From NCBI RefSeq assembly GCF_003382365.1, contig NZ_QTSU01000005.1, forward strand, positions 168,603 through 232,602: a stretch of DNA of 64,000 nucleotides. The letters run 5' to 3'. The translations under genes and the position numbers were made by a program. Below are positions 6,639 to 51,604 of the stretch, one piece after another. How positions within the stretch are numbered: position 1 is the first letter of the stretch; the number at the start of each line of letters is the position of its first letter. Under the pieces are notes generated by a model that did not search any database, had not been told where the DNA came from, and saw nothing but the letters and a program-made list of their open reading frames with translations. The stretch is from Lysobacter silvisoli (GTDB taxonomy: Bacteria; Pseudomonadota; Gammaproteobacteria; Xanthomonadales; Xanthomonadaceae).

Positions 6639-7865
6639 ATGAAGACCTACCTGGTCGGCGGCGCGGTACGCGACCGGCTGCTGGGCCGCGAGCCCGGCGA
6701 CCGCGACTACGTCGTGGTCGGCGCGACCCCGCAAGCCATGCTCGACGCCGGCTACAAGCCGGTGGGCCGCGACTTCCCCGTGTTCCTGCATCCGCACAGC
6801 GGCGAGGAATACGCGCTGGCGCGCACCGAACGCAAGTCCGGACGCGGCTACCGCGGTTTCGTCGTCGACACCGATCCCGCGGTGACGCTGGAAGAGGACC
6901 TGGGCCGGCGCGACTTCACCATCAACGCCATCGCCCAGGACGAGGACGGCCGTCTGGTCGATCCCTACGGCGGCGCGCGCGATGTCGAGGCGCGGGTGCT
7001 GCGCCACGTCGGTCCGGCCTTCGTCGAAGATCCGCTGCGGGTGTTGCGTGCGGCGCGCTTCATGGCCCGCTTCGCGCCGCTGGGTTTCAGCGTGGCGCCG
7101 GAGACCGTGGCGCTGATGCGCGAGATGGCGGCCTCGGGCGAGTTGGCCGAACTGGTGCCCGAGCGCGTGTGGCAGGAACTGCGCCGCGCGCTCGCCAGCG
7201 AGCGGCCTTCGGCCTTCCTGCATACCTTGCGCCAGGCCGATGCGCTGGCCGCGGTGCTGCCGGAAGTGGACGCGCTGTACGGCGTGCCGCAGCGCGCCGA
7301 GTACCACCCCGAAGTCGACACCGGCACGCACATCGAACTGGTCTGCGACATGGCCGCACGGCTGGCGCCGGGCGACGACCTGATCGGCTATGCCGCGCTC
7401 ACCCACGACCTGGGCAAGGCGCTGACGCCCGCCGACGTGCTGCCCAAGCACGTCGGTCACGAACAGGCCGGCCTGGCGCCGCTGCGCGCGCTCAGCGAAC
7501 GGCTGAAGGTGCCGACCGAACACCGCCAGCTGGCCGAAGCCGCCTGCCGCGAGCATTTGAACGTGCACCGCTTCGACGAACTGCGCGCCAGCACCGTCTT
7601 CGATCTGATCGCGCGCTGCGACGGCTTCCGCCAGCCCGAGCGCGTGCGCCGCATGAGCGTGGTCTGCGAAGCCGACAAGCGCGGCCGCACCGGCCTGTCC
7701 GAAGTCGAGTACCCGCAAGGCCCGCGCCTGCGCGCGGCGCTGGACGCCGCCCTGGCCGTGCGCGCCGCCGACGTCGCCCAGGGCCGCAGCGGCCCCGAAG
7801 TCGGCGAAGCCCTGCGCAAAGCGCGCATCGCCGCAATCGCCCAGGCCTCCGGCAAGTCGCCATGA
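6639..7865 (+). CDS. cca: Multifunctional CCA tRNA nucleotidyltransferase with HD domain
   Basis: A 408-residue class II CCA-adding enzyme that builds or repairs the 3'-CCA end of tRNAs. The nucleotidyltransferase signature ([13 protein letters not shown], then [12 protein letters not shown]) opens the protein. The [10 protein letters not shown] motif (about residue 90) and the basic RxxRF region ([12 protein letters not shown]) follow. An HD phosphohydrolase domain is present in the C-terminal third ([14 protein letters not shown]). The length and presence of the HD domain match the gammaproteobacterial enzyme (about 410 residues). Housekeeping gene; nothing unusual. Confidence 0.97.
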
Positions 7866-7873
7866 GCCCCCGC

Positions 7874-7980
7874 CTTGGGGTAGGAGCGGCGTAAGCCGCG
7901 ACCGCGCAACCGCAGCTACGACGAACGTTCGCCGACCCACGCGGCTCCGGGTCGCGGCTCACGCCGCTCCTACCCCAAAG
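7874..7980. repeat. Inverted repeat, TAGGAGCGGC family
   Basis: Facing arms reading CTTGGGGTAGGAGCGGCG...AAGCCGCGACC and GGTCGCGGCTCACGCCGCTC...CCCCAAAG, about 107 bp in total, directly downstream of cca. Related partial units occur at 61985-62140. It is a non-coding intergenic repeat that would fold into a long hairpin in RNA. Confidence 0.8.
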
Positions 7981-8032
7981 CAACGCCGCTCCCACAGGGC
8001 CGGCTTGGCTAAAGCTTCGCGCGTTCGAAACA

Positions 8033-36509: not shown

Positions 36510-38237
36510 TCAGCGGCGCGGGCCGCCGGGCTCGCACAGCACCGCATTGCGCGAGGTGCGCGTAGCGCTCTGGCCGTCGGCGGTGGTCACCACCAGGGTC
36601 GCCGTGGCGCCACTGGCGATCTCGGCCGAACGGCCGTCGGCGGACTGCCACAGCACGTTGCTCCAGCTGTAGCTGTACGGCGCGACGCCGCCGCTGACCG
36701 TCGCGGTCACCACGATGGTGTCGCCGCAGCCGCGGGTGAGCACCGGCAGGCCCACGGTGAACGGACCCACCGACTCGTAGGCCGGGCGGTCGTCGAACAC
36801 CTGCGCCCAGCGGCCGTCGAAACCGCCGTTCTGGGCCAGCTGCCAGCCGTTCAACAGCCACTGGCCGGCCTCGTAGTGCTCGCGCGTGTCGATGCCGCCG
36901 GAGTGGACCAGCAGGTCGTGCTGGCGCCAGTACACGTTCAGCGACGCATAGTCGCCGCTGGCGTCGGCGCGGTTGCGGTTGTAGCTGTCGCGGCCGGCGC
37001 CGGTGTAGCCGCCGAGCTTGTCCGAACCGGAGATGGTGTCGGCATTGGTCTCGGCCGAGTACGCGCCCCACAGCCAATCCTTGCCCAGCACGCCATCGCG
37101 GCCGTCGGTGAGGCTGGAACTGGAGGTGTCGCGCGAGAGCACGTAGAAGCGCTGCAGGCCGGCCGGCACTTCGATCTGGCCGGCTTCGTCGACGATCGGG
37201 CTGTCGAGCAGGATGTCGGCGGTCTGGCCCGAATTCCAGTTGGTCGACCAGTTCGCGCCCGACCACTGCCCGCCGAACACGTCGGCCAGGTCCTGCAGTT
37301 CGTAGGTGATGCGCTTGACCAGCGACCACGACACCGTGTCGTCGCGTCCGGCGGCCAGGGCGAAGGCGTTGTCGTAGCGGATCGTGCTCGCGCCCCAGGC
37401 CGACACCGCCGAGGGCGAGGTCTCCGGCACCCAGACGTAATGCACCGACTTGTCGTCGTCGTTGGTCACCTCCACTTCGGCCGAGTTGTTGTTGGTGCGG
37501 CGCGTGGCGATGGTGGCGTAGCTGTCCTGGACGAAATGCAGCTCGTGGCCGTGCGTGCCCAGCTCGGTGTTGTCCTCGTCGGCCTGCCAGATCATCACGT
37601 GCTTGCCGTCGGCGACCTGCATGAAGTTCAGGTCCGGGCTGCCGTAGCTGCGCATCACGTGGTCTTTGTGGCTGGTGATGGTCACGTGGCCCACGTACTC
37701 GCCGCCGGCGCCGGGCGTGCCGCCCACGCCACGCACCACGATCTCGATGCGCTCCCAATCGTGGATCTCGTTGGCCTTCTTATCCACCGGATGATAGACG
37801 TGGTACAGCAGCAGCAAGGCCTTGCTGTTGCCGTCCATGAACTCGACCGCCGACGAATACAGAGTGGGACGGATGCGCCAGTTCGAATAGGCGCCCGAAC
37901 GCGTCTGCGATGCGTAGATGTACTGCGACAGCAGGTTCGGCCAGGTGTAGCGGTTGTTGGCGAAATTGCCGTCGCGGTCGAAATCGTAGTTGGATATCCA
38001 GTCGCGTCCCGGCTTGCTGGAGTTCTCCTCGGCGCGCTGCAGGATCACCGGCGCGTAGTACTGCTGATAGGTCTTGCGCTCGGCCGCGGTCAGCAGCCAG
38101 GCCTGCGCCTGCACGCTGCGCACCGGCAGCAGCGCGAGCAGCACCGCCAGCGCGGCGAGCAGCCAGCGCAGGCTTACGGCGGGTACGGTGAAACCGCCCG
38201 AACGCGAATAACGCTCGGGGCGAATAGCCAGATCCAT
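36510..38237 (-). CDS. Secreted protein of unknown function with HDWE motif and C-terminal Ig/PKD-like repeat
   Basis: A 575-residue exported protein. An N-terminal helix (WLLAALAVLLALLPVRSVQAQ) acts as signal peptide. The central part contains YHVYHPVDKKANEIHDWERIEIVVRG, whose HDWE recalls the GHRHDWE heptapeptide of NPP1-type necrosis-inducing proteins, then GTHGHELHF and several Trp/Asn-rich stretches. The last 70 residues, from CGDTIVVTATVSGGVAPYSYSWSN to TRTSRNAVLC, form a PKD/SprB-like immunoglobulin module bounded by two cysteines. I do not assign a family. The ATG at 38237 has TAAGGAGACG upstream. It lies 209 bp downstream of the MFS gene on the same strand. Confidence 0.8.
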   Translation of the reverse strand: MDLAIRPERYSRSGGFTVPAVSLRWLLAALAVLLALLPVRSVQAQAWLLTAAERKTYQQYYAPVILQRAEENSSKPGRDWISNYDFDRDGNFANNRYTWPNLLSQYIYASQTRSGAYSNWRIRPTLYSSAVEFMDGNSKALLLLYHVYHPVDKKANEIHDWERIEIVVRGVGGTPGAGGEYVGHVTITSHKDHVMRSYGSPDLNFMQVADGKHVMIWQADEDNTELGTHGHELHFVQDSYATIATRRTNNNSAEVEVTNDDDKSVHYVWVPETSPSAVSAWGASTIRYDNAFALAAGRDDTVSWSLVKRITYELQDLADVFGGQWSGANWSTNWNSGQTADILLDSPIVDEAGQIEVPAGLQRFYVLSRDTSSSSLTDGRDGVLGKDWLWGAYSAETNADTISGSDKLGGYTGAGRDSYNRNRADASGDYASLNVYWRQHDLLVHSGGIDTREHYEAGQWLLNGWQLAQNGGFDGRWAQVFDDRPAYESVGPFTVGLPVLTRGCGDTIVVTATVSGGVAPYSYSWSNVLWQSADGRSAEIASGATATLVVTTADGQSATRTSRNAVLCEPGGPRR

Positions 38238-38446: not shown

Positions 38447-39658
38447 TCAGACAGCCGCGGAGGGCGCCTGCTGAGCGCGCGCGCCGAACAGCCGCGCCAA
38501 TCCCAACGCGCACCCCAGACCGACCGCGCAATAAACCAGCCACGGCAGGCAAGGCCACTGCCGCGCGCCGGCCAAGTCCACCAGCCAGCCGCCGGCCACG
38601 CTGCCCAGCGCGCCGCCCACGGCCAGGCTCAGCGAACTGGCGCCCAGGAACGCGCCCAGCGCGCGCGGATCGGCCATGCCGGCGATCAGGGTCTGCTGGG
38701 TCGGCCGGGTCATCACCGCGCCCAGCGCGAACGCGGCCACGCAGGCCAGGAAGCCGGCGAAGTCCGACACCCAGCCGATCGCGCCGGTGGCCAGCGACAT
38801 CAGCGCCACGCCCGCCACCAGCACCTGCGCCGTCGACCAGCGCCGCTCCAGCCAGCGCACCAGCACGTACTGCAGGCTCACCGTCAGCACCGCGCTGACC
38901 GCGAACATCAGCCCTACCCCGTCGCTGCCGCCGTACAACTTTTGCGCGAGCAGGGGAAAACTGAGATTGATCTGCACGGCCAGGAACCAGTACAGGCCCA
39001 TCAGCGCGATCAGTGCGACGAAGCGGCGGTCGCGCCAGACCAGGCCCAGGCCGCGCGACGGCGGCGCCGGCTCGGGCATCTCGACCTTGGGCAGCCAGAC
39101 CAGGGCGACGACGAAGTTGGCGGCGAAACAGGCGGCCGCGACCAGACACACCACGCGGAAGTCGTAGCGCAGCAGCGCCACGCCCAGCAGCGGGCCCAGG
39201 GTGGTGGCCACGCCGCCGACCCAGTTGCTGGCCGCGTAATAACGCGGCCGGGTCTCGGCCGTGGTCAGTGCCGCGATCGAGGCCTGGTAGGGCGCCTCGA
39301 ACAAGGCACCGCCCAAGGCCGACAACACCATCGCCCACAGCAGAGCGGGCAGGTCTTGCGCATACGCCAGGCTGGCGAAGCCCAGCGCGCGCAGCAGCAC
39401 GCCCAGGCAGATCATGCGCCGCGCGCCGTAGCGATCCGAGAGCAGGCCGCCCAGCAGCGCCAAGCCTTGTTGCGTCAACTGCCGCACCGCTAACGCCACG
39501 CCCACCGCGGCGGCGGCGAAGCCGAGCCGGTCGACGTAATGCACCGCCACCAGCGGCATCAGCATGGCGTAGCCGGTCACCATCAGGAAGGTGTAGACCA
39601 GCAGGCCGTTGAGGCCGCGCCGGCGCGCGGCCTGGTCCAGTGGCGCGCTCGCGCTCAT
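38447..39658 (-). CDS. MFS transporter, probable exporter of the operon product
   Basis: A 403-residue, twelve-helix major facilitator. The A-motif is visible after helix 2 (GGLLSDRYGARRMICLGVLLRALGF), and the second half begins after a loop at about residue 200 (PEPAPPSRGLGLVWRDRRF). It resembles MdtH/EntS-like drug and siderophore exporters. The start (ATG 39658) overlaps the stop of the DUF364 gene by ATGA, and it is the last gene of the ten-gene minus-strand operon. Export of a small chelator made by the preceding enzymes is inferred from context. Confidence 0.88.
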   Translation of the reverse strand: MSASAPLDQAARRRGLNGLLVYTFLMVTGYAMLMPLVAVHYVDRLGFAAAAVGVALAVRQLTQQGLALLGGLLSDRYGARRMICLGVLLRALGFASLAYAQDLPALLWAMVLSALGGALFEAPYQASIAALTTAETRPRYYAASNWVGGVATTLGPLLGVALLRYDFRVVCLVAAACFAANFVVALVWLPKVEMPEPAPPSRGLGLVWRDRRFVALIALMGLYWFLAVQINLSFPLLAQKLYGGSDGVGLMFAVSAVLTVSLQYVLVRWLERRWSTAQVLVAGVALMSLATGAIGWVSDFAGFLACVAAFALGAVMTRPTQQTLIAGMADPRALGAFLGASSLSLAVGGALGSVAGGWLVDLAGARQWPCLPWLVYCAVGLGCALGLARLFGARAQQAPSAAV

Positions 39659-40506
39659 GCCGCCGCGCGCGCGCCGTCGTAATCCGGTGCCCGGTACAGA
39701 TGGATCGGCGTCGGGTCGGCGCTGAACTGCGAGAACGGGAACGGTTCGGCCGACACCGCCGCCACGCCGTGGCCCAGGAAGCGCGGCACGATCGCGCTGC
39801 CGGTCTGGGCGTAGACCACCAGGGGCACGCCGCGCGCGCGCAGCGTGGCCAGGATCTCGTCGAAGGAACCGTTGGACAGGGTCATGCCGGTGGCGATGAC
39901 CAGGTCGGCCTGGGCCAGCACCGGCCGCATGTCGCGCGCGACCTCGGTGCCGTCCTGGGTGCGCGCCAGATTGAAGTCGCAGGGCAGGCACACGCCGCCG
40001 TGCGCCTGGATCGCGGCGACCAGCGGATTGACCACGCCGATCAGGCCCACGCGTTGACCGGGCTGGATATGCAGCAGCCCGGCGATGGCCTCGTCGCGCG
40101 CCTTCGCACGCTGCAGCGGGGTGCCGTGCGGCAGCCACAGCGTGCGCGCCTCGCGCTGCTGCAGGTGCGGCCGGGTCAGCGACAGGTAGGCGTCCAGAGC
40201 AGCCACGCGTACCGGCACGCGCGCATCGGTCAGCAACTCCGCCAGGTTGCGACCGGACAGTTCCTCGGCCACGTCGGGATGCAGTTGCTCGCGTTCCACG
40301 CAGCAACCGCCGAAGCCCGCGTCCACGCGCAGCACCAGGTAGTGATTGCGGTACTTGGTGTCGGTGCCGGGAAACTGGGTGCTCTGCCGCACCCAGAACG
40401 CGCCCACCGCATGCAGGCCGGCGGGATCGGGACCGTAGTCGCCGCGCAACACGGCGGCGGTGAGGTCGGCGACGGATTCGGGCGGAACGAGGCGGGCGTT
40501 GGACAT
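39655..40506 (-). CDS. DUF364 family Rossmann-like protein (putative heavy-metal chelation)
   Basis: A 283-residue protein of the DUF364/DUF4213 family (Pfam PF04016, labelled putative heavy-metal chelation). An N-terminal DUF4213-like half includes YRNHYLVLRVDAGFGGCCVER and SGRNLAELL. The Rossmann-like half starts at VGLIGVVNPLVAAIQAHGG, contains ADLVIATGMTLSNGSFDEIL and ends VPRFLGHGVAAVSAEPFPFS. The adjacent cysteine pair (Gly-Gly-Cys-Cys-Val-Glu) could bind metal. The family is often near metal transporters; its biochemical role is unknown. In this operon it may act on the product or on the metal-product complex. Confidence 0.82.
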   Translation of the reverse strand: MSNARLVPPESVADLTAAVLRGDYGPDPAGLHAVGAFWVRQSTQFPGTDTKYRNHYLVLRVDAGFGGCCVEREQLHPDVAEELSGRNLAELLTDARVPVRVAALDAYLSLTRPHLQQREARTLWLPHGTPLQRAKARDEAIAGLLHIQPGQRVGLIGVVNPLVAAIQAHGGVCLPCDFNLARTQDGTEVARDMRPVLAQADLVIATGMTLSNGSFDEILATLRARGVPLVVYAQTGSAIVPRFLGHGVAAVSAEPFPFSQFSADPTPIHLYRAPDYDGARAAA

Positions 40507-40538
40507 GACGGTGTCTGCGATGAGAGTGCGAGGAGTGC

Positions 40539-41789
40539 TCAGGCGTAATGCAGCGCGATCCGGCCCAGGGCCCGCTCGGCATGCGCGCGCGCCTCCAGCC
40601 CGCTCGCGTCGGTGGCCACCACGTGACCCAGGTAGCAGGCGTTGTCCACCGGCTCGCCGACGTCGCAGCCGACGATGGGCACCAGGCTCCAGCGCGCCAC
40701 ATCGGCATCGGCGGCCAGCGCCTGCGCGCCCTCGATCGCGGCGATGCGGCCGGCGCGCGGCGGTACCAGGAATTTGATCGCCGCGCTGGCGATGCCGGTG
40801 GCTTTGCGCTGCAGATCCGGCGCGCGGCCCAGCGCCAGTTCGATCTGCGCGTCGAGCAGGTCGATGCCGGTCACGCGCTGGATCAGTTCGACGATGTAGT
40901 TGCCGCCGGGGCGCGGATTGATCTCGACGATGCGCGGGCCATCGGCGGTCAGCTTGACCTCGGTGTGGCTGATGCCGTGGTCGTGGCCCACCGCCTGCAG
41001 CGCGCCGCGCACCAGCGTTTCGATCTCCGCCGCCAGCGGCGCCGGCAGCCGCGCCGGAAACATGTGCCCGTCCTCGATGAAGTACGGCAGCCCGGTCACG
41101 CTCTTGTCGGTGATGCCCAGCACCGTGGTCGCGCCCTGGAAGGTGCAGGCCTCCACGCTGACTTCCTCGCCGCGCATGAATTCCTCCAGCAGCACCAGCG
41201 GCACCCGCGCCTGCTCGCGGAAGTTGACCGGGAACCGTTCCAGCGCATCGAAGGCCAGGCACAGCTCGGTCTCGTCGTGGACCAGGCGCACGAAGGCGCT
41301 GGAGGCCAGGTCGGTGGGCTTGAGCACCAGCGGGTAACCGATGCGCGCGGCGGCTTCGCGCGCCTGCGGCCAGGACTCGGCCACGGCGAACTTCGGATTG
41401 GGCAGACCCGCCTGTTCGAGCGCGGTGCGCACCCGGTCCTTGCGTCGCGCCAGCGCCACCTGCGCCGAATACGCCTGCGGCAGGTCCAGCGCCTGCGCCA
41501 CCTGGGCCACGGTGTCGATGTAGTAGTCGCAGATGGTGACCACGCCGTCGAATGGCGTCTGACCATGACGTTCGCGCAGGAATGCGATCAGCGCCGGTAC
41601 GTCGTTGGTATCGAAGTCCAGCACCTGCTCGGCGTTGGCCACCACCGGATGCGCGCCGTCGGCGTCGTCGGCGTAATGGCTGCGGCTGCGGGTGACGAAG
41701 CTGTAGCGATGGCCCAGCCGGCGGATGGCCGGCGGGAAAATGCGGCCAGTGCCGCCGACCCAACTTTCGATCATCAACAAATGCGCCAT
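40539..41789 (-). CDS. ATP-grasp ligase
   Basis: A 416-residue ATP-grasp enzyme that should form an amide bond by way of an acyl-phosphate. The ATP-binding and Mg-binding motifs are YPLVLKPTDLASSAFVRLVHD, VLLEEFMRGEEVSVEACTF, HTEVKLTADGPRIVEINPRPGGNYI. The C-terminal RimK/carbamoyl-phosphate-like region ends RALGRIALHYA. Similar enzymes (BL00235-, DdaF- and carnosine synthase-like) link amino acids in natural-product pathways. Its position after a PLP synthase and a kinase suggests it condenses the amino acid they make with another carboxylic or amino acid. ATG at 41789 follows CAGGAGACC. Confidence 0.9.
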   Translation of the reverse strand: MAHLLMIESWVGGTGRIFPPAIRRLGHRYSFVTRSRSHYADDADGAHPVVANAEQVLDFDTNDVPALIAFLRERHGQTPFDGVVTICDYYIDTVAQVAQALDLPQAYSAQVALARRKDRVRTALEQAGLPNPKFAVAESWPQAREAAARIGYPLVLKPTDLASSAFVRLVHDETELCLAFDALERFPVNFREQARVPLVLLEEFMRGEEVSVEACTFQGATTVLGITDKSVTGLPYFIEDGHMFPARLPAPLAAEIETLVRGALQAVGHDHGISHTEVKLTADGPRIVEINPRPGGNYIVELIQRVTGIDLLDAQIELALGRAPDLQRKATGIASAAIKFLVPPRAGRIAAIEGAQALAADADVARWSLVPIVGCDVGEPVDNACYLGHVVATDASGLEARAHAERALGRIALHYA

Positions 41790-41812
41790 GGCGGCGGTCT
41801 CCTGTAGGGAAT

Positions 41813-42835
41813 TCAATGCGCGGCGGGGGCCGGCGGGTAGTCGCGGCGGGCCCAAGCCATCGCCGACCAGGGCAGCGCCAGCTGGTCCAGCGACTCGATC
41901 GTTTGCGGCGCCAAGGTGCGCGGGTCGGCGGCGCTGTCGTGGTGGGCGAACACGCCCTCGACGTAGCGGTGGCCGGTGTCGGCGGCCACGAACAGCACGC
42001 TGCGCTCCGGCCGCCGCGCCGCCTCGTGCGCGGCCACCAGATACGCGCAGCCGCTGGACAGCCCGGCGAACACCGCGTGCTCGCGCAACAGCGCCACCGC
42101 GCCGGCCACGCCGTAGTCGAAGCTGACCCAATGCACCTGGTCGTACAGCGCGTGGCGCACGTTGCGGAACGGGATCGAAGTGCCGATGCCGGCGATGATG
42201 ATGCCGGGGTCCTCGATGTGCTGGCAGCCGAAACTGACGCTGCCGAAGGGCTGCACGCCGATCAGCTCCACGCCGTCGTCGATCGCGCGCAGGGCCTGCG
42301 CCAGGCCGCCGGTGGAACAACCCGAGCCGACGCCGCCGACCACGCTCAGCGCCGCGCAACCCAAGGCGTCGGCGATGGCCTCGGCCACCGGCGCGTAGCC
42401 GTGGTAGTGGATGTCGTCGTGGTACTGCTGCATCCAGTGCATGTCCGGCCGCTCGTGCAGCAGTTGCTGGATGCGCGCCACCCGCAGACTCTGGTCCAGC
42501 TTCAGCGTGGCCTGCGGCTCCACCTGTTCGACCGTGGCGCCGAGCACGCGCAGCTGCAGCATCAACGCGCGGTCTATGGTCTTGGAGCCGACGATGTGGC
42601 AGTGCAGGCCGTAGCGGTGGCAGGCCACCGCCAGCGCGTAGGCGTACAGGCCGCTGGAACTGTCGAGCAAGGTCGCGCCTGGGCGCACGCGGCCGCTGGC
42701 GAGCAGACGTTCCACCGCCACCAGGGTGGAATACAGCTTCATGGTCTCGAACCGCGCCACGTACAGGTTCGATGCCAGCTGCACCAATGCGGGCGCCTTG
42801 ACCGCATCGGCGATATGCGCATGCACCGCGTTCAC
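41813..42835 (-). CDS. PLP-dependent enzyme of the cysteine synthase / SbnA fold
   Basis: A 340-residue fold-type II PLP enzyme related to cysteine synthase and to SbnA (the O-phosphoserine-dependent synthase of staphyloferrin B). The PLP lysine is probably in FETMKLYSTLVAVE. The usual SGNTG substrate loop is altered to DSSSGLYAYALA, and the phosphate-binding glycine loop is VVGGVGSGCSTGGLAQAL. The divergent loop argues against ordinary cysteine synthesis. The start is GTG at 42835, overlapping the kinase stop codon (GTGA) with GGAG 8 nt upstream. The kinase and this enzyme probably act in sequence: phosphorylate a hydroxyl, then replace the phosphate. Confidence 0.85.
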   Translation of the reverse strand: MNAVHAHIADAVKAPALVQLASNLYVARFETMKLYSTLVAVERLLASGRVRPGATLLDSSSGLYAYALAVACHRYGLHCHIVGSKTIDRALMLQLRVLGATVEQVEPQATLKLDQSLRVARIQQLLHERPDMHWMQQYHDDIHYHGYAPVAEAIADALGCAALSVVGGVGSGCSTGGLAQALRAIDDGVELIGVQPFGSVSFGCQHIEDPGIIIAGIGTSIPFRNVRHALYDQVHWVSFDYGVAGAVALLREHAVFAGLSSGCAYLVAAHEAARRPERSVLFVAADTGHRYVEGVFAHHDSAADPRTLAPQTIESLDQLALPWSAMAWARRDYPPAPAAH

Positions 42836-43776
42836 GGCCCGGTCTCCACGAAACGGCACTGCCGGCCCAGGCCGTGGAAGAACGCCGACAACTCGCTCAT
42901 GCGCGCCGCGCTGGGCCGGCGCGCGTACAGGTAGCCGATCAGGCTGCCGGTGTGCGCGACCACGATGCCGTCGGCGCCGAGCTCGCGCCGGTGCCGCTGC
43001 ATGGCCGCGAAGCTGGGCTTGGGCAGCACCCCCTGCGAGAGCGCGGCGCTGCGCGTGGAACAGGCGCAGATCGCGCGCGGATCGCGCTGGCCGAACGCGG
43101 CCAGCATGGCGTCCAGGTTGCGCGCGTACTCGCCCTGGCGGCGGCGATAGTGGGCGAGCAACGGCGCCGCGGCCGATTCGGTTTCCACCGCGCCGCCTTC
43201 GTCGATGTAACAGGCGTGCAGCCGCAGCGGCCGGGCGAAGGTGCGCACCACTTCCTGCAGGCCGCTGAGGTAGAGCGCGTGGCGGTCCAGGAACACGCTG
43301 TCGGAGCGCTCGATCTGGCGCAGCAGCGCGGCCACCAGTGGCGGCGGCGAACGTCGCGCGAACACCTGATCCAGGCAGCGCACCGTGGCGACGATGTCGG
43401 CGGTGGAGCTGGCCATGCCCTTGCCGATGGGCAACTCGGAATCGTGGCTCCAACGCCCGGGCGGCAGGCGCAGGCCGTAGTGCTTCAGGTACAGCGCGAT
43501 GGCCTGGCGGCAGCGCGGCTTGCTAGTCAGTTCGGCGTCGATGTCGCCGGCCTCGCCCTGGGCGAAGTGTACCCAGCTGTAGCGGCGGATCGGCAGCGAG
43601 ATCAGGCCGATGTGCAGCTCGCCGCCGCGCTCATAGGGCCCTTGCAGCAACTCGCCCAGAGTGCCGTGGCAGACGCCGCTGCGCACCGTAGGCGCGGCGG
43701 CCGACGCAGGCACGGCGCGGCGGCGCAACGATGCGCGCTGCGGCGCCAAGGCGAGCGCGGTGTTTCCCTGATCCAT
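42832..43776 (-). CDS. GHMP kinase, L-threonine kinase (PduX)-like
   Basis: A 314-residue GHMP-superfamily small-molecule kinase. The ATP-binding motif LPIGKGMASSTADIVATVR matches the P-x-x-x-G-M-A-S-S-T-A-D pattern of PduX/BluE L-threonine kinases. The N-terminal strand (SGVCHGTLGELLQGP) and the C-terminal VVAHTGSLIGYLYARR are also present. No cobalamin gene is nearby, so the classic aminopropanol-linker role is unlikely. A substrate such as L-serine or L-threonine, feeding the PLP enzyme with an O-phospho-amino acid, is inferred. The ATG at 43776 lies 3 bp after the receptor stop. Confidence 0.85.
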   Translation of the reverse strand: MDQGNTALALAPQRASLRRRAVPASAAAPTVRSGVCHGTLGELLQGPYERGGELHIGLISLPIRRYSWVHFAQGEAGDIDAELTSKPRCRQAIALYLKHYGLRLPPGRWSHDSELPIGKGMASSTADIVATVRCLDQVFARRSPPPLVAALLRQIERSDSVFLDRHALYLSGLQEVVRTFARPLRLHACYIDEGGAVETESAAAPLLAHYRRRQGEYARNLDAMLAAFGQRDPRAICACSTRSAALSQGVLPKPSFAAMQRHRRELGADGIVVAHTGSLIGYLYARRPSAARMSELSAFFHGLGRQCRFVETGP

Positions 43777-43779
43777 GGG

Positions 43780-45699
43780 TCATCCCTCGAAGTCCACTGC
43801 CAGTTGCACCACGTAGCGGCGGCCGTCGGTGAGGCCGAAGCTGTTGTGGCCGTACAGATTCCAGGCGTAGGTGTCGCCCACGTTCGCCACCAGCAGGCGC
43901 AGGCTGGCCGGCGCCGCGCCGAGCTTGAAGCGGTAGCGCGCGCCGACATCGGCCAGGGTGTAGGCGGGCAGGCGGTTGACGCCGTCGCGCGAGGCCACGC
44001 GTTCGCCGTAGTGGCTCATCGCCACGTCGAACGACCAGCCCGGCAGCGCCGGCGGCCGGTACTCCAGATCGCCGCGCAGCACCCGTTCGGCCTGGCCGAT
44101 CGGACGCTCGCCGACCCGTCCTTCGCGCACCGCCGCGCCGCTCACGCGCGGCCGCATCAGCACCGCACCGGCCACCAGGTTGAAACGGTCGTTGAGCGCG
44201 CCGCTCAGGCTCAGCTCCATGCCGCGGTGGCGCACTTCGCCCAGCGGTCCGAACACGTTGTTCTCGTCGGTGACGAAGTAGGGCTTGCGCACGTCGAAGC
44301 CGCCGGCGACCAGCTTCATGCCGTTGCCCAGGGTCCAGCGCAGCCCGGCGTCGGTCTGGCGCGTGCGGATCGCCGGCAGCGCCTGGTTGCGGTTGGCCGC
44401 GTCGTCCGGCGCCACCCCGCTTTCCTCCAGCCCGCGGGTATGGCCGGCGTACAGGGCCAGGCGCGGACTGAGGTAGGCGCTGACACTGGCGCTGGGCAGC
44501 CAGGGATCGTCGCGCGTGGACACGCGCGGCAGGCCGGGCTGGTCCACCTGCTTGTGGTAGCGGCTGCGCTGCAGGCCCAGGCTGAGCTCGCCCACATCAC
44601 GCCAGCGGCCTTCGTAGGCCAGCCCGCCGGTCCACTGGCGCACGCGGTCGCGGGTGCGCTGGGCGAATGCGAACGCGTCGGGTTCGGGCATCGGCCGCAA
44701 CTCGCCCAGGCGCCGCCATCCGTAGTCCAGCGCCGGCGCCGAACCGCCGTAAAGGCTTTCCAGGCTGCGCCCGCGCACCGCCGCATGCAGCAGGTGCAGG
44801 CGCGGGCCCTCACTGAAGCTGCGGCTCAGGCGCAGCTCGCCGCTGCTGGACACCGAGCGCTGGCTGGGATCGGCGATGACCTTTTCGCGAGTCATGCCAT
44901 CGGGCGTGGTATCGACGAACAACTCGGCGAAACCGCTGGGCATGTGGAAGATCGAGCGCACCGCGCTGCCCGACAGCGCCCAGTCGCGGCCGATGCGCGC
45001 TTTGGCGATCACGCCGTAGTTGCGGCTGTCGTATTCGTTGTCCGACCAGCGCTGGCCGAAGTGGCGGCGGCGCTGCACCTTGGGCGGCAGGTAGTTGCCG
45101 GCGGTCACGATCACCGGCGCCACTTCCTCGTCGCGCCCGCGCGAGATGCTCCAGAACGGCAGGATCTCCACGTGCTCGCTGGGCCGCCAGCGCGGTACCA
45201 CCGCCGCGCGCAGGTAGCGCGCGTCGGCGCCGTCGTAATACTCCTCGCGCGCCCACGACACGTTGGCCGCCACGCCCAGGCGGCCCTCGACGATGGGCAG
45301 CTTGGCGTCCAGCTCCAGCGCCGGCGCGCCATAGGCGTTGAGCGCGCCGATGACACTGAGCACGCGCCGGTCGCCGGCCTTCTTCAGCCGGTAATCGACG
45401 ATGCCGGTGGGCGCCGGGAACGGATACCCCAGCGCCGACAGGCCCACGCGAATAGTGGAACCCTCCACCAGCGCCGGCGGCACCGTGCCCTGGCGGTCGA
45501 AGTACAGGCCCTCCATGCGCACGTTGCCGGCCTCCACCGGCGAGAATCCGCGCACCTGCTTGCTGCTGTACAGGCCGATGCTTTCGTTGCCCAGGGTCGC
45601 GCCGAACGCGTCCTCGGCCGCGGTCACCGCGTTGTCGCCGGCGCGTTGCGCATAGGCGGGCGCGCAGGCGATCGCCGCCATCCATAGCCAGGCTTTCAT
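43780..45699 (-). CDS. Atypical TonB-dependent receptor B
   Basis: A 639-residue outer-membrane receptor with a signal peptide (MKAWLWMAAIACAPAYAQ). The plug is short and unusual: AEDAFGATLGNESIGLYSSKQVRGFSP, AGNVRMEGLYFD and STIRVGLSALGYPFPAPTGIVDYRL replace the common 'VEVLRGPSSxLYG' wording, and no clear Ton box follows the signal. The barrel ends VVQLAVDFEG, where the last residue is not the usual Phe/Trp. GGAGG lies 8 nt before the ATG. It is embedded between the ABC permease and the biosynthetic genes, so it is probably the dedicated uptake receptor for the operon product. Confidence 0.85.
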   Translation of the reverse strand: MKAWLWMAAIACAPAYAQRAGDNAVTAAEDAFGATLGNESIGLYSSKQVRGFSPVEAGNVRMEGLYFDRQGTVPPALVEGSTIRVGLSALGYPFPAPTGIVDYRLKKAGDRRVLSVIGALNAYGAPALELDAKLPIVEGRLGVAANVSWAREEYYDGADARYLRAAVVPRWRPSEHVEILPFWSISRGRDEEVAPVIVTAGNYLPPKVQRRRHFGQRWSDNEYDSRNYGVIAKARIGRDWALSGSAVRSIFHMPSGFAELFVDTTPDGMTREKVIADPSQRSVSSSGELRLSRSFSEGPRLHLLHAAVRGRSLESLYGGSAPALDYGWRRLGELRPMPEPDAFAFAQRTRDRVRQWTGGLAYEGRWRDVGELSLGLQRSRYHKQVDQPGLPRVSTRDDPWLPSASVSAYLSPRLALYAGHTRGLEESGVAPDDAANRNQALPAIRTRQTDAGLRWTLGNGMKLVAGGFDVRKPYFVTDENNVFGPLGEVRHRGMELSLSGALNDRFNLVAGAVLMRPRVSGAAVREGRVGERPIGQAERVLRGDLEYRPPALPGWSFDVAMSHYGERVASRDGVNRLPAYTLADVGARYRFKLGAAPASLRLLVANVGDTYAWNLYGHNSFGLTDGRRYVVQLAVDFEG

Positions 45700-45700
45700 C

Positions 45701-47184
45701 TCAATCCTCCATGGGCCAATGACGCAGGCGGCGCAGCGCCCAAAAGGACAGCGCGGCGGCGAGCAAGGCCAGCCACAGCAGCGCAGGCAGCACCGCACGC
45801 AACCGCGCCTCGGAGCCCGGCTCGCGGCCGGCCCAGGCGGGGATCGCGTCGTACTCGCCGAAGTTCTGCCGCCCGCGCGACTGCGCGGGACGCGGTGTGG
45901 GCGCCGCGATCTGCCGCTGGATTCGCGGGTAGAACCAGTCGCGCAAGCGCTGCTGGTAGTCGCGCACCTGGGTTTCGAAACGGCGGTGGCGCTGCGCATC
46001 GGTGCCGGCCAGCTGCGCCAGCGCGGACTGCAGGCCCAGCGGCGGCGATAGGTAGGCCGCGAACGCCGACGCTTGCGCGCGGCCGTCGCGCGCGGCCTGG
46101 CGCTGCGCCTCCAGCCTGGACAGCCGCCGCTCCAGCTCGGGCGCCAGGAAGGTCATGCGGGTGGCGTAGTCCAGGCTGCCGACGCGATCGGACGCACCGA
46201 TCAGGTCGCTGCGCCGCGCGAACGCGGCGGCGGCGATCGCATCGCGCTGCGCGGCGATGGCGTCGTTGCCGCGCCGCTGCGCGTCCACCAGCGCGGTGGC
46301 CGAGGGCATCGGATAGCGCGTCCGCGCATAGGCATCGGCCGCCAGCGGCACGCCGATGGCCAAGGCGGCCCACAATGCGACCAGGCTGCCCACCGCGCCG
46401 GCCGCGCTAGGCCAAGCGGCGAGTACGAGGAAAGCCAGGGCCAGCCATAGGCCCAGGTAAGCCAGGCTCAGCGCCGCCGCGGCCGCCAGCTCGGGCCACG
46501 CCGCGCGCGCATCCACACCGGCCCAGCACAAAGCCAAGATCAGCGACGCCAACACCAGCGGCGCCATCCACAAACCGATCGCGGCGATACGCGCACTCAA
46601 CCAGATGCGCGGACCGATTCGTTGCGCGGCGATCAAGCGCAGCATGCCGTTGTCGCGCTCGAAGCTCCCAACAACGCGGCCAACAGGATCGTCGCCACCG
46701 GCAGCAGATAGGCCAGCACGAAGCCCAGATCGAAGCGGCCCAGGCCCAGGCTGCGCGGCGGCTCGAAGTCGTACACCGGTTCCACCCCGAACGGCGTTTC
46801 CAGCTTCACCGGCAACCGCGTCGGCAACAGGTCGCTGGCGCCCACGGCCAGCGGCGAGGACGGCAGATTGGGCTTGTACGCCTGAGCGCGCAGGAAGTAG
46901 CGGCTGTAGCCGGCCACGTCGGTCGGGTCCTGCCAGTACGGCAAGGGCTCGGCCGCCGGCTGCGCGTAACCGCGCGCACGCTCGCGCGTCTGCTCCAGCC
47001 AGGCGCGGTCGGCGGCGCGCGCCTGTGCGATCGCCGCGTCCTGCGCGCGATGCAGGGCCGCGCCGCTGTCGGCGCCCCACAGCATCGCCAGCGCCAGCAG
47101 GCCCAGCACCAGCCACAGCAGGCGGCTGCGCCCGACCTGGCGCAGTTCCCAGCGCAGCAGCGCGAAGAAACCGGGCGCGCTCAT
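45701..47184 (-). pseudogene. ABC-2 type permease (DUF3526-like) with a -1 frameshift
   Basis: The second permease of the ABC exporter/importer, expected length about 494 residues. The first 174 codons (47184 down to 46663; MSAPGFFALLRWELRQVG..., ending VATILLAALLGA) are in one frame, which then runs into a stop at 46633. The rest (FERDNGMLRLIAAQRIGPR..., to RRLRHWPMED) continues in the -1 frame to 45701. The join is at 46661-46665 (plus strand GAAGC). Both parts are clean and family-like, so a recent single-base deletion or a sequencing error is likely. No slippery heptamer is present. The ATG at 47184 overlaps the first permease's stop codon. Confidence 0.82.
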
Positions 47185-48584
47185 GGCCGCAACCTGCGCG
47201 TGGCCACGGCCAGCAGGGTCAGCGCCAGCGCCGACCACAGCAGCAGGGCGGCCGCGGCCGGCGCCGCCACCGCGCGCGCGGCCGGCAGCGCCAGCGGGCG
47301 GTGATGGAACTCGGGCACCTGCGCCCACAGCCGCTCGTCGTTGTTATGACGCGCGCCTGTGTCGCCGCTGGGGTGCGCCATCACGTCCTGGTTCATGCGG
47401 TTCACCAGCGCGCGCCGGTAGCGCTCGGCGCCGTCGATGAAGCCGCGGTGGTGGGCGAAGTCGCTGCCGGCCAGCGCGGGCGACAGGCCCTGCAGCGCGA
47501 TCGCCGGCGACAGCAGGCCGAGCACGGCGTACGTACGGTCCTGGCCGACCACGCGGTCGTAGTAGCCGCCCAGCACGCGGTCGAACACGCCGTGCGAATG
47601 GCGTTCGTTGAGGTCCAACTCGGCGCCGCGCAGGTCCACCGGCAGCTGTGCCTGCTCGCGCACGCCGTAGCGCGCCAGCAGTTGGGCGCGGTTGGCCTGC
47701 CCCGCCTCGGCGGTCCAGTACGAGGGCGCTTCGTCGAGCAGGCGCTGTTTGACCGCCTGCGTGGACGGCAGCGGTTGCGCGCGCTGGGCCAGGCCGTCGG
47801 CCCAGCGCGGCAGGATCAGTGCGAACGCGATCCACAGGCCGAACAGCGTCGCCAGCGCGATGCGCACGTTGCCGGCCAGCAGCGACACCGCCACCCCCAC
47901 CGCGGTGAGCACGCCCAGCCACAGCGCCATCGCCGACGCCCACAGGCTCAGGCGCAGGCCGGTGTCGACATCCAGCAGGCCCTGCGCCAAGGCCAACGAT
48001 GCCGCGCACAGGACCACCGGCAGCAGCAGGGCCAGCAGCAGCGCGCTCCAGATCGCCAGCACCTTGGCGCGCACGATGGCCGCCGGCCGCACCGCCGCGC
48101 CCAAGGCCAGGCGCAGGCTGCCGCGCTCGCGATCCATGGCCACCGCGCCGAAGGCGAGCAGGAACGCCACCAGCGGCGCGAAACCGATCAGCAGACTCGA
48201 AGGACTCAGCGCCGCGGCGCGCTGCAAGGGCGAGGCATCGCCTTGCGGCCGGTACAGCGCGTCGTTCTGCACGTGCGCCTCCAGCCACACCGCCTGGCCG
48301 ACATAGGGCTCCGCGCCCGGGTCCAGCGCCGCCAGCGGCGGCGTGGGCTTGAACGCATAGATGCTGTAATGCGCGGCCGAGTGCGGGTCCTTCGCGCCCT
48401 GCCCCAGCCAGCGCGCGCGCTCGGCCTGGGCCATGCGCGATTTCTCGGCGTTGCCGGCGGCGATGCGTTCGGCGTTGAACGCGAAGGCCAGCAGTACCAG
48501 CGCGCCCAGGCACAGCAGCGACCACCAGGCGCGGCGGTCGCGCCGCAGCAGGGTCCATTCGTAGGCGGTGGCATGCGCCTTCAT
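47181..48584 (-). CDS. ABC-2 type permease (DUF3526-like)
   Basis: A 467-residue membrane protein: an N-terminal helix (WWSLLCLGALVLLAFAF), a large extracytoplasmic part, then five or six C-terminal helices (for example LIGFAPLVAFLLAFGAVAMDRERGSLRL, the latter being the typical 'ERERGTLxL' turn of ABC-2 permeases). It pairs with the ATPase encoded upstream and the frameshifted permease downstream. DUF3526-type permeases are frequently found next to TonB-dependent receptors. Transport direction and substrate are unknown. ATGA overlaps occur at both ends. Confidence 0.87.
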   Translation of the reverse strand: MKAHATAYEWTLLRRDRRAWWSLLCLGALVLLAFAFNAERIAAGNAEKSRMAQAERARWLGQGAKDPHSAAHYSIYAFKPTPPLAALDPGAEPYVGQAVWLEAHVQNDALYRPQGDASPLQRAAALSPSSLLIGFAPLVAFLLAFGAVAMDRERGSLRLALGAAVRPAAIVRAKVLAIWSALLLALLLPVVLCAASLALAQGLLDVDTGLRLSLWASAMALWLGVLTAVGVAVSLLAGNVRIALATLFGLWIAFALILPRWADGLAQRAQPLPSTQAVKQRLLDEAPSYWTAEAGQANRAQLLARYGVREQAQLPVDLRGAELDLNERHSHGVFDRVLGGYYDRVVGQDRTYAVLGLLSPAIALQGLSPALAGSDFAHHRGFIDGAERYRRALVNRMNQDVMAHPSGDTGARHNNDERLWAQVPEFHHRPLALPAARAVAAPAAAALLLWSALALTLLAVATRRLRP

Positions 48585-49315
48585 CGCGACAGCTGCTCCA
48601 GGTACAGCGCCTCGATCTGCGCCGCGCTGAGCCGGTCGGTGCGCTGCTCCAGCAGCAGCCGGCCGTCGCGCAGGATGCCCAGGCGCTGGGCCACGTCCTT
48701 GACCCGGTACAGGTCGTGGGTGGCCATCAGCACCGCCATGCCGCGCTGCGCGGCCGCGCGCACGCCGTGGCTGAGATCGTTGGCGGCGCTGGCGTCCAGG
48801 CCCGAGGTGGGCTCGTCCAGCAACAGCACGCGCGCATCCTTGGCCAACGCGATGGCCAGCCCGACTTTCTGGCGCATGCCCTTGGAATAGCCGCCGGCGC
48901 GCCGCGCATGCGCTTCTTCCTGCAAGCCGGCCTCGTTGAGCAGCGCGCGCGCCTGCGCGTCGTCCAGGCGCCGGCCGCCGAGCAGGGCGAAGTAGCCCAG
49001 GTTCTCGATCGCGCTCAGCGTCGGGTGCAGCATCACCGTTTCCGGCAGGTAGGCGATGCGTGCGCGCGCGCCCAGCGGATCGGCCACCGCATCGATGCCG
49101 GCCACTTCGATGCGGCCAGCGTCGGGGCGCAGGAACCCCAGAATCAGGTTCAAGGTGGTGGTCTTGCCCGCGCCGTTGGGCCCGAGCAGGGCATAGACCT
49201 CGCCCGGCGCCAACGCCAGGCTCAGCGACTCCAGCGCGCAACGCTCGCCGAAGCGCTTGCGCACCGAATCCAGCCGCAATGCCTGCGCCGCCGCCGGCGC
49301 GTCCAGGCGGCTCAC
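48581..49315 (-). CDS. ABC transporter ATP-binding protein
   Basis: A 244-residue ATPase. Walker [18 protein letters not shown], signature [15 protein letters not shown], Walker [15 protein letters not shown] and the H-loop [11 protein letters not shown] are all intact. It belongs to the ABC-2 (CcmA/NosF-like) group rather than to siderophore importers. The start is GTG at 49315, overlapping the receptor stop (GTGA); purine-rich AAGGTGGA precedes it. Confidence 0.95.
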
Positions 49316-51561
49316 AGGTCCACCTTGAACGTGAGCTCGACGCTGCGCGGGGCGCCAATGACCAACTGGTCGGCCGCGCCGCCGGACCACTGCGCGTAGA
49401 ACGCATCGCCCAGGTTGCGCCCGTGCAAGGCCAGCTCGCCGAACGGCAGCCGGTAGGCCAGCGACGCGTCCCACACGGTATGCGAATCCACGCGGATGCT
49501 GTTGGCGTTGTTGGTGTAGAACGCGCCCACGTAGCGCGCGCCACCGCTCAAGCGCAGCGGCACCGCGTTGAAGCGGTAGCTGGCGTACAACTGGGCCAGA
49601 CGTTCGGGCACGTTGGGCGGCGTGTTGCCGGCGCGGTCGATGCCGCCGGCCTCGCGCAGTTCATCGAAGCGCGCGTTCAACGCCGCCACGCTCGCGTCCA
49701 CCCTCAGCTGCGGCGTCAGCGCGGCCGACAGCGACAGCTCCGCGCCGCGCGAGGACTGGCGCCCGCCCTGGATCGAGATCGCGGCGTTGGCCGGATCGCG
49801 GGTGACGATGTCGTCCTGGCGGATCCAGTACCCGCCCAGAGTCAGGTCGATGCGGTCCTGCCAGAACGTGCGCTTGAGGCCGATATCGACCGCGCGTCCG
49901 TGGGTGAGGTCGAAACGCGCATTGGCCTGCGACAGCAGCGGCAGGCTGCCCACCGGCGCGACCGCGGCGCTGTATTGCGCGTACAGCTGGGTCTGCGGCT
50001 GCAGGTCGTAGACCGTGCCCACGCGCCAGGACAGCGGATCGTAATCGCGCGAGAAGCGCGTGAGCGCGCCGGTGTTGTAGTCGCGATTGCTGCGTTCCAG
50101 TTCGATGCGGTCGTAGCGCAGCCCGGCCAGCAGCAGCCAGCGCGGGGTCAGGTTGAGTGCGTCTTCGAGGAACACCGAGGCGGTGCGCGTGCTGGAATCG
50201 AAGTCCACGCGGTTGCCGGCGCCGGGAAACAGCGCGGCCTCGTTACCGACCGGGAACAAGCCGCGCTGCGGCGCGAACGGGTCCACCGCCGCGGCCGTGC
50301 CGAAGCGACGCGGCACCGCCAGATCGCCGTCGCTGAACTCCACGCCCACCGAGTAGCGGTTGCGGCGTCCCGCCCACAGCGATTCGCCGATCAGGCTGGC
50401 GCGCTCGACCCAGTAACGGTGGCGGTGCTCGATGCGGGTGATGCCGCGCTTGAGCAGGCCGCTGGCGGCATCGAAGCTGTAGGTTTCGGAATTGAGCCAG
50501 CGCCGAGTGGCGTCGTAGTAGCTGGCTTCGTTGACCAGGCGCAGGTTCTCGCCCAGCTGCCACGACACCCGCGTGCGCAGCCAGTCGCTGCGCGCGGTCT
50601 GGGTGCCGTCGGCGACGTTGTAGTTGACCTCGCGCATCGCGCGGTCGAGCACGTAGCCGTTGCCGCTGCGGACCAGATCGCTGGGATCGCGGGCCACGGC
50701 GCGCGGCACCAGCGGCGTGCCCCAGTAGGCGCTGTCGTAGTCGTCCTCGTAATGGTCCAGCGCGATCTCCGCGTCCACCGCATCGCTGGGGCGCCAGCGC
50801 GCGCTGAGCGTGGCCGAGGTGGCGCGGTTCTCGGTGGCGTCCACATAGCCGTCGCTGCGGCGGTGGCTGGCGATCAGGCGCAGCGCGAAGCGCTCGTCCA
50901 GCGGCCAGTTGCCGTCCACCGCATAGCGCTGTCCGCCGAAGCTGCCCCAGCCCAGCAGCGCCGACAGCCGGCGCCCGTCGAAGTCGGCGCGCTTGGGCAC
51001 CAGGTTGATCGCGCCGGCCAGTGCGCCTTCGCCGTACAGCACCGAGGCCGGCCCCTTGAGCACCTCGATGCGTTCGAAGCTCCAGCTGTCGAAATCGCGG
51101 GTGACCAGCGGCGCGGCGGTCTGGCGCGCGCCGTCGTACAGCAGCGAGATCGCGCCGCCGCTGAAGCCGCGCATGGACGTGGTGCCCGGCGAGGACGGCA
51201 GCTGTCCGGCCAACACGCCGGGCGCGGCGTTGAGCGCTTCCACGCTGCTGCGCAGGCCGCGTTGCTGCAGATCGTCGGCGGTCAGCACTTCGACCGCGGC
51301 CGGGGTCTCGCGCGGGCTCAGGCCCAGGCGCGAGGCGGTCGCGGACGGCGTGTCCAGGCGCGCGCGCTCGGCGGTGCCGGTCACGGTCACGCCGTCGAGC
51401 TGATGCGCAGTGGTCGCCGCGGCGTCGGCGTCGGCGCCCTGCGCTCTGGCCGGCGCGAGCGACAGCGCGCTCAGCGCCACCGCGCTCACCGTGGCCAGCT
51501 TGCGGGCGCGGCCGCGCCCCGTTGCGGCCGCGTCGCGGCCCCCGCCCTGTCGTGCGCCCAC
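49312..51561 (-). CDS. TonB-dependent receptor A (siderophore-receptor type), first gene of the operon
   Basis: A 749-residue receptor of the FhuA/FpvA-like siderophore class. The leader has a long N-region (LATVSAVALSALSLAPARAQ). A Ton-box-like HQLDGVTVTGTAE follows, then a complete plug (RETPAAVEVLTADDLQQRG, TTSMRGFSGGAISLLYDG, IEVLKGPASVLYGEGALAGAINLVPKR) and a barrel ending ELTFKVDL. The start is GTG at 51561, preceded by GAGGGG. The palindromic Zur-like operator lies 19 bp upstream. As the first gene of the cluster it senses or imports the metallophore (inferred). Confidence 0.93.
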   Translation of the reverse strand: MGARQGGGRDAAATGRGRARKLATVSAVALSALSLAPARAQGADADAAATTAHQLDGVTVTGTAERARLDTPSATASRLGLSPRETPAAVEVLTADDLQQRGLRSSVEALNAAPGVLAGQLPSSPGTTSMRGFSGGAISLLYDGARQTAAPLVTRDFDSWSFERIEVLKGPASVLYGEGALAGAINLVPKRADFDGRRLSALLGWGSFGGQRYAVDGNWPLDERFALRLIASHRRSDGYVDATENRATSATLSARWRPSDAVDAEIALDHYEDDYDSAYWGTPLVPRAVARDPSDLVRSGNGYVLDRAMREVNYNVADGTQTARSDWLRTRVSWQLGENLRLVNEASYYDATRRWLNSETYSFDAASGLLKRGITRIEHRHRYWVERASLIGESLWAGRRNRYSVGVEFSDGDLAVPRRFGTAAAVDPFAPQRGLFPVGNEAALFPGAGNRVDFDSSTRTASVFLEDALNLTPRWLLLAGLRYDRIELERSNRDYNTGALTRFSRDYDPLSWRVGTVYDLQPQTQLYAQYSAAVAPVGSLPLLSQANARFDLTHGRAVDIGLKRTFWQDRIDLTLGGYWIRQDDIVTRDPANAAISIQGGRQSSRGAELSLSAALTPQLRVDASVAALNARFDELREAGGIDRAGNTPPNVPERLAQLYASYRFNAVPLRLSGGARYVGAFYTNNANSIRVDSHTVWDASLAYRLPFGELALHGRNLGDAFYAQWSGGAADQLVIGAPRSVELTFKVDL

Positions 51562-51580
51562 TGCGATCCCCTCAGTCTTA

Positions 51581-51604
51581 ATTGAAACGTTATATCATTT
51601 CAAT
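51581..51604 (-). promoter_or_regulatory. Zur-like operator upstream of the metallophore operon
   Basis: A 24-bp near-palindrome: outer arms ATTGAAA and TTTCAAT are exact complements and the core reads CGTTATATCA; 20 of 24 positions are symmetric. It is the only AT-rich stretch near the start codon at 51561. The GAAA..GTTATA..CATTTC layout resembles proteobacterial Zur boxes built from GTTATA-type half-sites flanked by GAAAT/ATTTC. It is not a match to the GATAATGATAATC-type Fur box. The binding protein is inferred. Confidence 0.6.

Follow-up and report, generated by a model that had tools for sequence, protein, structure and literature searches.

A ten-gene operon of Lysobacter silvisoli with a predicted Zur site as a candidate zincophore system

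The closest described relative of the locus treated here is the Caulobacter znuK-znuGHI module, a TonB-dependent receptor together with an ATP-binding cassette (ABC) ATPase of the ABC-2 type and two permeases, which is repressed by Zur (PMC4176598). We analyzed a 64-kb stretch of the Lysobacter silvisoli genome (the window), in which a run of ten minus-strand genes (51561 to 38447) resembles this module in having a TonB receptor beside an ABC-2 ATPase and two permeases, and a Zur-type box; DUF3526, found in both window permeases, is also present in the Caulobacter genome. In the part of the Caulobacter study that we drew on, znuK-znuGHI is described without genes for biosynthesis or export, whereas the window operon adds a second receptor and a five-gene cassette (kinase, pyridoxal phosphate [PLP]-dependent enzyme, ATP-grasp ligase, DUF364 protein, and major facilitator superfamily [MFS] transporter) that looks like one for biosynthesis and export.

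Other known pathways share single features with the operon. Staphyloferrin B synthesis, which starts with SbnA and SbnB, is alike in its SbnA-type PLP enzyme and in passing through a phospho-amino acid, as the product of the window kinase would be; SbnA uses O-phosphoserine. In contrast, family scans of the ten window genes found no SbnB-type dehydrogenase and no nonribosomal peptide synthetase (NRPS)-independent siderophore (NIS) synthetase, the window PLP enzyme scores below the SbnA cut-off, and the activated amino acid would be supplied by the GHMP kinase. Aminopolycarboxylates are the product type of SbnA, ethylenediaminedisuccinic acid (EDDS), and aspergillomarasmine chemistry, and the likeness of the latter two to the window pathway lies in this expected product type; EDDS is under zinc control, and to our knowledge neither the EDDS nor the aspergillomarasmine pathway uses a GHMP kinase, an ATP-grasp ligase, or a DUF364 protein. 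Opine metallophores (staphylopine, pseudopaline) likewise serve zinc acquisition by a secreted ligand, but the same scans of the ten genes found neither a nicotianamine-synthase-like gene nor an opine dehydrogenase gene. The ATP-grasp dipeptide ligases BacD, BL00235, and DdaF share the ATP-grasp fold and the Pfam domain LAL_C2 with the window ligase, which differs from them in its context of metal control, receptors, and importers. Zinc metallophores known to us are few.

The uptake half of the operon thus has a described relative; we found no openly licensed PubMed Central paper that describes the biosynthetic route or links it to Zur or to a cobalamin riboswitch. Within that literature, no link of DUF364 to metallophores or of DUF3526 to TonB-dependent systems was found (among the best matches, only the structure paper mentions DUF364, and none mentions DUF3526), searches for a siderophore or zincophore route with a GHMP kinase, an ATP-grasp ligase, and SbnA gave only unrelated papers, the best matches contained no link of cobalamin riboswitches to metallophores, and cobaltophore, cobalophore, cobalt metallophore, or cobalt-binding siderophore were not mentioned. 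A preliminary description, made from the sequence alone, had listed ten genes on one strand with GTGA/ATGA overlaps at 49312, 48581, 47181, 42832, and 39655, which follows from the gene coordinates (several junctions are 4-bp overlaps). Its inventory stands in gene set and order and overlooked that permease 2 is split over two frames. Its statement that NRPS, NIS, and opine enzymes are lacking is true of the ten genes by family scans (the remaining genome was not searched for them), and its remark that it recognized no described system fits the biosynthetic route and not the receptor/ABC-2 half, the counterpart of which is znuK-znuGHI.

We consider it probable (roughly 0.7) that this operon, with its predicted Zur site, serves the synthesis, export, and reuptake of a zincophore, a small molecule that binds zinc. 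Zinc starvation would release Zur from the promoter. Serine, threonine, or homoserine would then be phosphorylated at its hydroxyl by the GHMP kinase, and the SbnA-like PLP enzyme would swap the phosphate for the amine of another amino acid to give an aminopolycarboxylate; the central step would be this feeding of the PLP enzyme by an O-phospho-amino acid made within the cluster. The ATP-grasp enzyme would then add an amino acid via a peptide-type bond, with the DUF364 protein acting in the same step or the next, and the ligand would leave the cell through the MFS pump. Both TonB receptors would carry the metal complex into the periplasm, from where the ABC-2 transporter of the ZnuGHI type would move the metal or the complex onward, in a direction that is putative. 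We infer the reaction order (kinase, SbnA-like beta-replacement, ligation, DUF364) from family chemistry. The sequence basis of the proposal covers gene content and order, conservation, Zur-like boxes, a fused gene in Massilia, and family memberships.

With respect to regulation, the predicted Zur box (TTGAAATGATATAACGTTTCAA) overlaps a sigma70-like promoter recognized by eye (TTGACG at 51630-51625, a 17-bp spacer, and TAGATT at 51607-51602). We scored sites with a 19-column matrix from four independent Caulobacter Zur sites in a table of PMC4176598, and the operon promoter reaches 11.2, the best score of the 64 kb, followed by 7.8 for the next site; 11.2 was reached in 4 of 2,000 dinucleotide shuffles of the 300-bp promoter and in 3 of 100 shuffles of the window. 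Furthermore, the operon promoter holds the best matrix site of the locus in all 15 distinct full operons, with scores of 9.3 to 19.4. In the Aliikangiella locus (L099) and in L101, where the biosynthetic genes are divergently arranged, a matrix site at the divergent promoter of these genes ranks second and first, respectively, so that these genes appear to be independently under the same control. The strongest Zur-type site of L099 (1610-1628) precedes a gene for a ZigA zinc metallochaperone (334-1542; 693.6 bits, above the cut-off of 600). Between the ZigA gene and the cluster, that locus has another TonB receptor gene (1903-3954). In the genome of the window itself, the sole place matching the Caulobacter core pattern GTTATANNATAAC with one mismatch is the divergent promoter between the genes of a ZnuD-like receptor (G000 C1:143550, L009; His-rich stretch; best NCBIfam model ZnuD at 464.7 bits, cut-off 950) and a MerC protein. 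A Fur-family gene roughly 6 kb away from this promoter has Zur as its best NCBIfam model (146 bits, below the cut-off of 167; the next model is 103 bits lower). These observations suggest that control of the window operon is of the Zur type, pointing to zinc, which is why we propose zinc as the metal.

The front half of the operon (receptor, ATPase, and two DUF3526 permeases, the second of them interrupted) has the znuK-znuGHI layout and matches a ZnuK-ZnuGHI-type zinc module, its zinc transport being putative. Among 14 control genomes, DUF3526 was found in Caulobacter only. Nine modules in the host's own family have DUF3526 but no kinase, and eight of them were fetched. In seven of these eight, the top-scoring Zur-type site of the stretch directly precedes the module's first gene; in the eighth (L108), the second-best site does so. 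The best site of L108 (5928) is found before a gene (6120-7982) whose product has a zinc carboxypeptidase (M14) domain, not before the ABC module. In L112, the module runs from a CobW/COG0523 GTPase through a TonB receptor with a plug domain to the ABC genes, and by BLAST the module of L113 resembles it. Permease 2 is uninterrupted in 22 of 22 rows in which both pieces were matched (20 distinct genomes; 25 rows checked), so the split is peculiar to the window genome, where it reflects either a lesion or an assembly error.

To follow the operon beyond this genome, 80 loci were fetched after a search with an alignment of 17 kinases; at least 507 stretches matched in the same scan encode a kinase relative, the rest of the cluster not having been checked in each. 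Because a rough gene caller missed genes, gene presence was counted from tblastn with the window's own proteins, and two loci (L116 and L118) were left out of the counts as apparent repeats of L026 and L033. The identical ten-gene order was found in 13 of the 80 loci, namely, in seven from Lysobacter (L026-L031 and L047, the last from the biocontrol laboratory species Lysobacter enzymogenes), two Lysobacteraceae metagenome-assembled genomes (MAGs; L033 and L034), a Rhodanobacteraceae MAG (L036), Tahibacter (L038), and two loci of the Sphingomonas type (L042 and L045); L117 is one more. The L045 sequence is labelled Bacillus sp. 2B10, a doubtful organism label given a layout like that of the Sphingomonas locus L042 and its pairing with L042 in the PLP enzyme tree. 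Of 119 genomes from the host's own family, counting that of the window, 6 encode the kinase and 15 have DUF3526; in each of the 6, a DUF3526 pair lies within about 5 kb of the kinase on the same contig, while 9 genomes have DUF3526 without the kinase. By our own arithmetic, the chance of all six falling among 15 of 119 is about 1.4e-6, assuming independent draws, a value that overstates the evidence because the kinase genomes are closely related (five, including the window's, belong to one genus and the sixth to the same family). The preliminary description had named homologues that almost never co-occur as a sign against its proposal; contrary to this, the families co-occur strongly, and its reading of the arrangement as that of a metallophore, supported by this co-occurrence and by the Zur-type promoter box, is still the best one.

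For the biosynthetic cassette, the N domain of the kinase (Pfam) and its modelled fold fit the GHMP family: the predicted structure (predicted local distance difference test [pLDDT] score of 85.6) has IspE and mevalonate kinases as its nearest folds, with homoserine kinases at ranks 10 and 12. Its predicted substrate is a small amino acid, phosphorylated at the hydroxyl. The source names of its homologues include "propanediol utilization" (compare the PduX-type L-threonine kinase). Coumermycin CouR3, a threonine kinase, was considered as a possible precedent, and no mention of it was found among the openly licensed PubMed Central papers listed. The PLP enzyme is predicted to catalyze a beta-replacement, and its solved relatives in a profile search of the PDB include a cystathionine beta-synthase, SbnA, and CmnB; plain phmmer searches of the PDB with the PLP enzyme and the DUF364 protein gave nothing at the limits used. 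The nearest solved relative of the ATP-grasp ligase is the L-amino acid ligase BL00235 (7.1e-29), with BacD also among the nearest, and the ligase is predicted to form a peptide-type bond.

The modelled DUF364 protein (pLDDT, 86.0) finds the solved DUF364 proteins 3l5o and 3npg as its top fold matches and has no match in PHROGs. It is predicted to be a pathway enzyme; the 3l5o paper, in the part consulted, suggests a condensation or hydrolysis step in the synthesis of flavins, pterins, or siderophores (PMC2954201). In all five Massilia loci, the ATP-grasp and DUF364 parts form a single frame of 691 residues (L040, 11886-13961, where Pfam confirms both domains), which ties DUF364 to the ligase step. 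The MFS transporter is predicted to export the product.

The cluster changes its surroundings in more distant relatives. In the five Massilia loci (L037, L039-L041, and L043), receptor 1 is divergent, receptor 2 has no match, and a Fur-family gene lies inside the cluster, with palindromes of the GATAAT...ATTATC type in both divergent promoters. The actinobacterial set comprises all 54 actinobacterial members of the 80 loci, and tblastn finds the PLP enzyme in 48 of them, an ATP-grasp relative in 48, a methyltransferase in 42, and FecB or FecCD in 38. An MFS match (E<=1e-8) is present in 36 of the 54, and the MFS protein of L051 is confirmed as such by Pfam. Judged by these matches, the importer type changes with the envelope, from TonB/ABC-2 in loci of the window type to the FecBCD type in actinobacteria. 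On Tsukamurella plasmid 26 (L107), FecCDB, DUF364, MFS, kinase, and PLP enzyme genes stand in a row with no adjoining ATP-grasp ligase. In a tree of the PLP enzyme (49 rows), the 27 non-actinobacterial rows lie behind one branch (support, 99/96); given long rows for L073, L086, L046, and L095 and thinning of the B12-labelled rows to every third, we use this tree for the Actinobacteria split only.

Near the actinobacterial kinase genes, the search for iron or zinc boxes was negative; reading of the leaders gave a B12-box instead, confirmed by Rfam. Such a box is located no more than 800 bp upstream of the kinase gene in 38 of the 54 actinobacterial loci (36 of 48 if only those with the PLP enzyme are counted) and at that position in none of the remaining 26 of the 80 loci. 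Rfam cobalamin riboswitches exceed the gathering score in 13 of the 17 distinct actinobacterial loci scanned, the exceptions being L069, L086, L087, and L094, whereas nine non-actinobacterial loci and the locus on the Tsukamurella plasmid gave none. Eleven actinobacterial loci (L048, L049, L051 [9569-9741], L057, L062, L066, L073, L077, L078, L079, and L104) have one riboswitch directly upstream of the kinase and another about 5 kb further, by the importer genes. These findings suggest that the actinomycete version would make a cobalt metallophore. In the same Streptomyces neighbourhood, L051 also has a match to the sodF small RNA (RF02790; 4124-4213) by a superoxide-dismutase-like gene.

A number of observations weigh against a zincophore made by the window operon. 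The three window shuffles mentioned above hold a matrix site as strong as that of the operon, and the window box matches the Caulobacter core pattern with two mismatches, which in its own genome is background (22 forward versus 21 reversed-control matches), so that the Zur claim rests on the matrix and on conservation. None of the five Massilia loci has a Zur-type site at the promoter, and the Fur-family gene there (L040, 9348-9809, minus strand) has a Bacillus-type Fur as its best model (66.8 bits, cut-off 220; Zur, 28.9). The best Zur-type site is not at the assumed operon start in L044, L046, L095, and L102, and in L102 a Fur consensus, allowing up to five mismatches, has a five-mismatch match 0.9 kb before the receptor match; the Acidobacteria MAG locus L035, with a rearranged gene set, had no operon start set and reaches a best matrix score of 6.4. 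On the side of the enzymes, the kinase matches its nearest named NCBIfam families weakly, the best NCBIfam model of the PLP enzyme, SbnA, gives 133.9 bits, far below its cut-off of 349.95, and permease 2 is interrupted in the window genome. In addition, the actinobacterial ATP-grasp and MFS proteins are about 27 to 36% identical to those of the window, and the MFS match covers at least 40% of the query in only 6 of the 54 loci. A ferric-reductase-like or FhuF-like gene accompanies the cluster in 36 of the 54 (tblastn); since the core goes with such genes and with cobalamin riboswitches in actinomycetes, zinc is not a property of the core.

Some of these points would also fit a product that is an iron siderophore or a broad chelator, with the Zur-like boxes being misread Fur-family boxes. 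Receptor 1 scores as a siderophore receptor (TIGR01783), and the reductase-like and FhuF-like genes of the actinomycetes as well as the Fur-family gene and palindromes of Massilia point the same way. We nevertheless regard this as unlikely, as all 15 full operons have boxes that fit a matrix of Zur sites tested by experiment, the best core match of the host's own genome is at the ZnuD-like/MerC promoter, and a ZigA gene lies near the Aliikangiella cluster. The Fur consensus, moreover, at up to five mismatches misses the promoters of all 13 full operons among the 80 loci (the sole match there, in L042, is far off), and it comes close to an operon start only in L041 (Massilia) and, at a distance of 0.9 kb, in L102. 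Across the loci, Fur, IdeR, and actinobacterial Zur consensus sequences gave no consistent promoter match: Fur matches occur in L041, L042, L044, L063, L090, L099, and L102, and IdeR matches only in L048, L070, and L085, where they lie 3 to 9 kb away from the kinase.

ATP-grasp L-amino acid ligases and PLP enzymes also build dipeptide antibiotics, and the operon could make a small peptide antibiotic or antimetabolite of the dapdiamide or bacilysin kind, exported by the MFS or ABC-2 transporter, while the receptors import something else. The presence of BacD among the nearest solved ligases, a weak NCBIfam match to dapdiamide synthase, and a multidrug pump as the best MFS match would agree with this. 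We find it quite improbable in view of a control that is apparently metal or cofactor responsive and varies across phyla, of importers that accompany the core in both envelope types, and of the lack of an immunity- or target-like gene among the ten. That a zinc-uptake module merely shares its promoter with an unrelated biosynthetic cassette, as the DUF3526 modules without a kinase in 9 of 119 family genomes and the Streptomyces cassette without DUF3526-type permeases might indicate, is very unlikely given a gene order kept across several families and the biosynthetic genes of Aliikangiella and L101 with their own Zur-type divergent promoter.

The zincophore proposed for the window operon may belong to a wider family. 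What appear to be three different metal- or cofactor-responsive controls, importers matched to the envelope, an exporter, and a constant core would fit a family of secreted metal ligands. More tentatively, at somewhat less than even odds in our estimate, the kinase/SbnA-like/ATP-grasp core could constitute a new metallophore class that is made without NRPS, NIS, or opine enzymes and reaches from Proteobacteria to Actinobacteria. The regulator would set the metal in this class: Zur would make it zinc in Lysobacter, Sphingomonas, and Aliikangiella, and cobalamin riboswitches would make it cobalt in Streptomyces. If so, the Streptomyces product would be the first cobaltophore, a secreted ligand gathering cobalt for vitamin B12, and regulators would offer a handle on the metal, Zur boxes predicting zinc and cobalamin riboswitches predicting cobalt. 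One recent genome-mining effort reportedly targets nonribosomal peptide (NRP) metallophores (PMC12971057). As the proposed pathway is without the marker enzymes of NRP metallophores, many genomes may carry an unseen metallophore class.

Table 1. Genes and promoter element of the ten-gene operon, in window coordinates
Feature	Position	Strand	Remarks
Predicted Zur box, TTGAAATGATATAACGTTTCAA	51582..51603	-	Overlaps sigma70-like promoter
TonB-dependent receptor 1 (siderophore-receptor type)	49312..51561	-	Pfam barrel and plug; NCBIfam TIGR01783, 259.5 bits, above cut-off 223.5
ABC transporter ATPase (ZnuG-like position)	48581..49315	-	Pfam ABC_tran
ABC-2 permease 1, DUF3526 (ZnuH-like position)	47181..48584	-	Pfam ABC2_membrane_2 and DUF3526
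ABC-2 permease 2, DUF3526 (ZnuI-like position)	45701..47184	-	Frame interrupted: N piece 47184-46633, C piece ends 45701
TonB-dependent receptor 2, short	43780..45699	-	Pfam barrel only, no plug match; TIGR01783, 105.2 bits, below cut-off 223.5
GHMP-superfamily kinase	42832..43776	-	Pfam GHMP_kinases_N
PLP-dependent enzyme, SbnA/cystathionine beta-synthase-like	41813..42835	-	Pfam PALP
ATP-grasp ligase, L-amino-acid-ligase C-terminal domain	40539..41789	-	Pfam ATP-grasp_4 and LAL_C2, over cut-off
DUF364 protein	39655..40506	-	Pfam PF04016, over cut-off
MFS transporter	38447..39658	-	Pfam MFS_1; best NCBIfam MdtH, 289.9 bits, below cut-off 469

The window has a G+C content of 70% and belongs to a genome of 4.5 Mb; across its 64 kb, there were no tRNA matches and no Rfam matches at gathering thresholds. 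A gene for a FadL-type protein lies upstream of the operon, and a protein matching the SprB repeat is encoded directly downstream of it on the minus strand (36510-38237).

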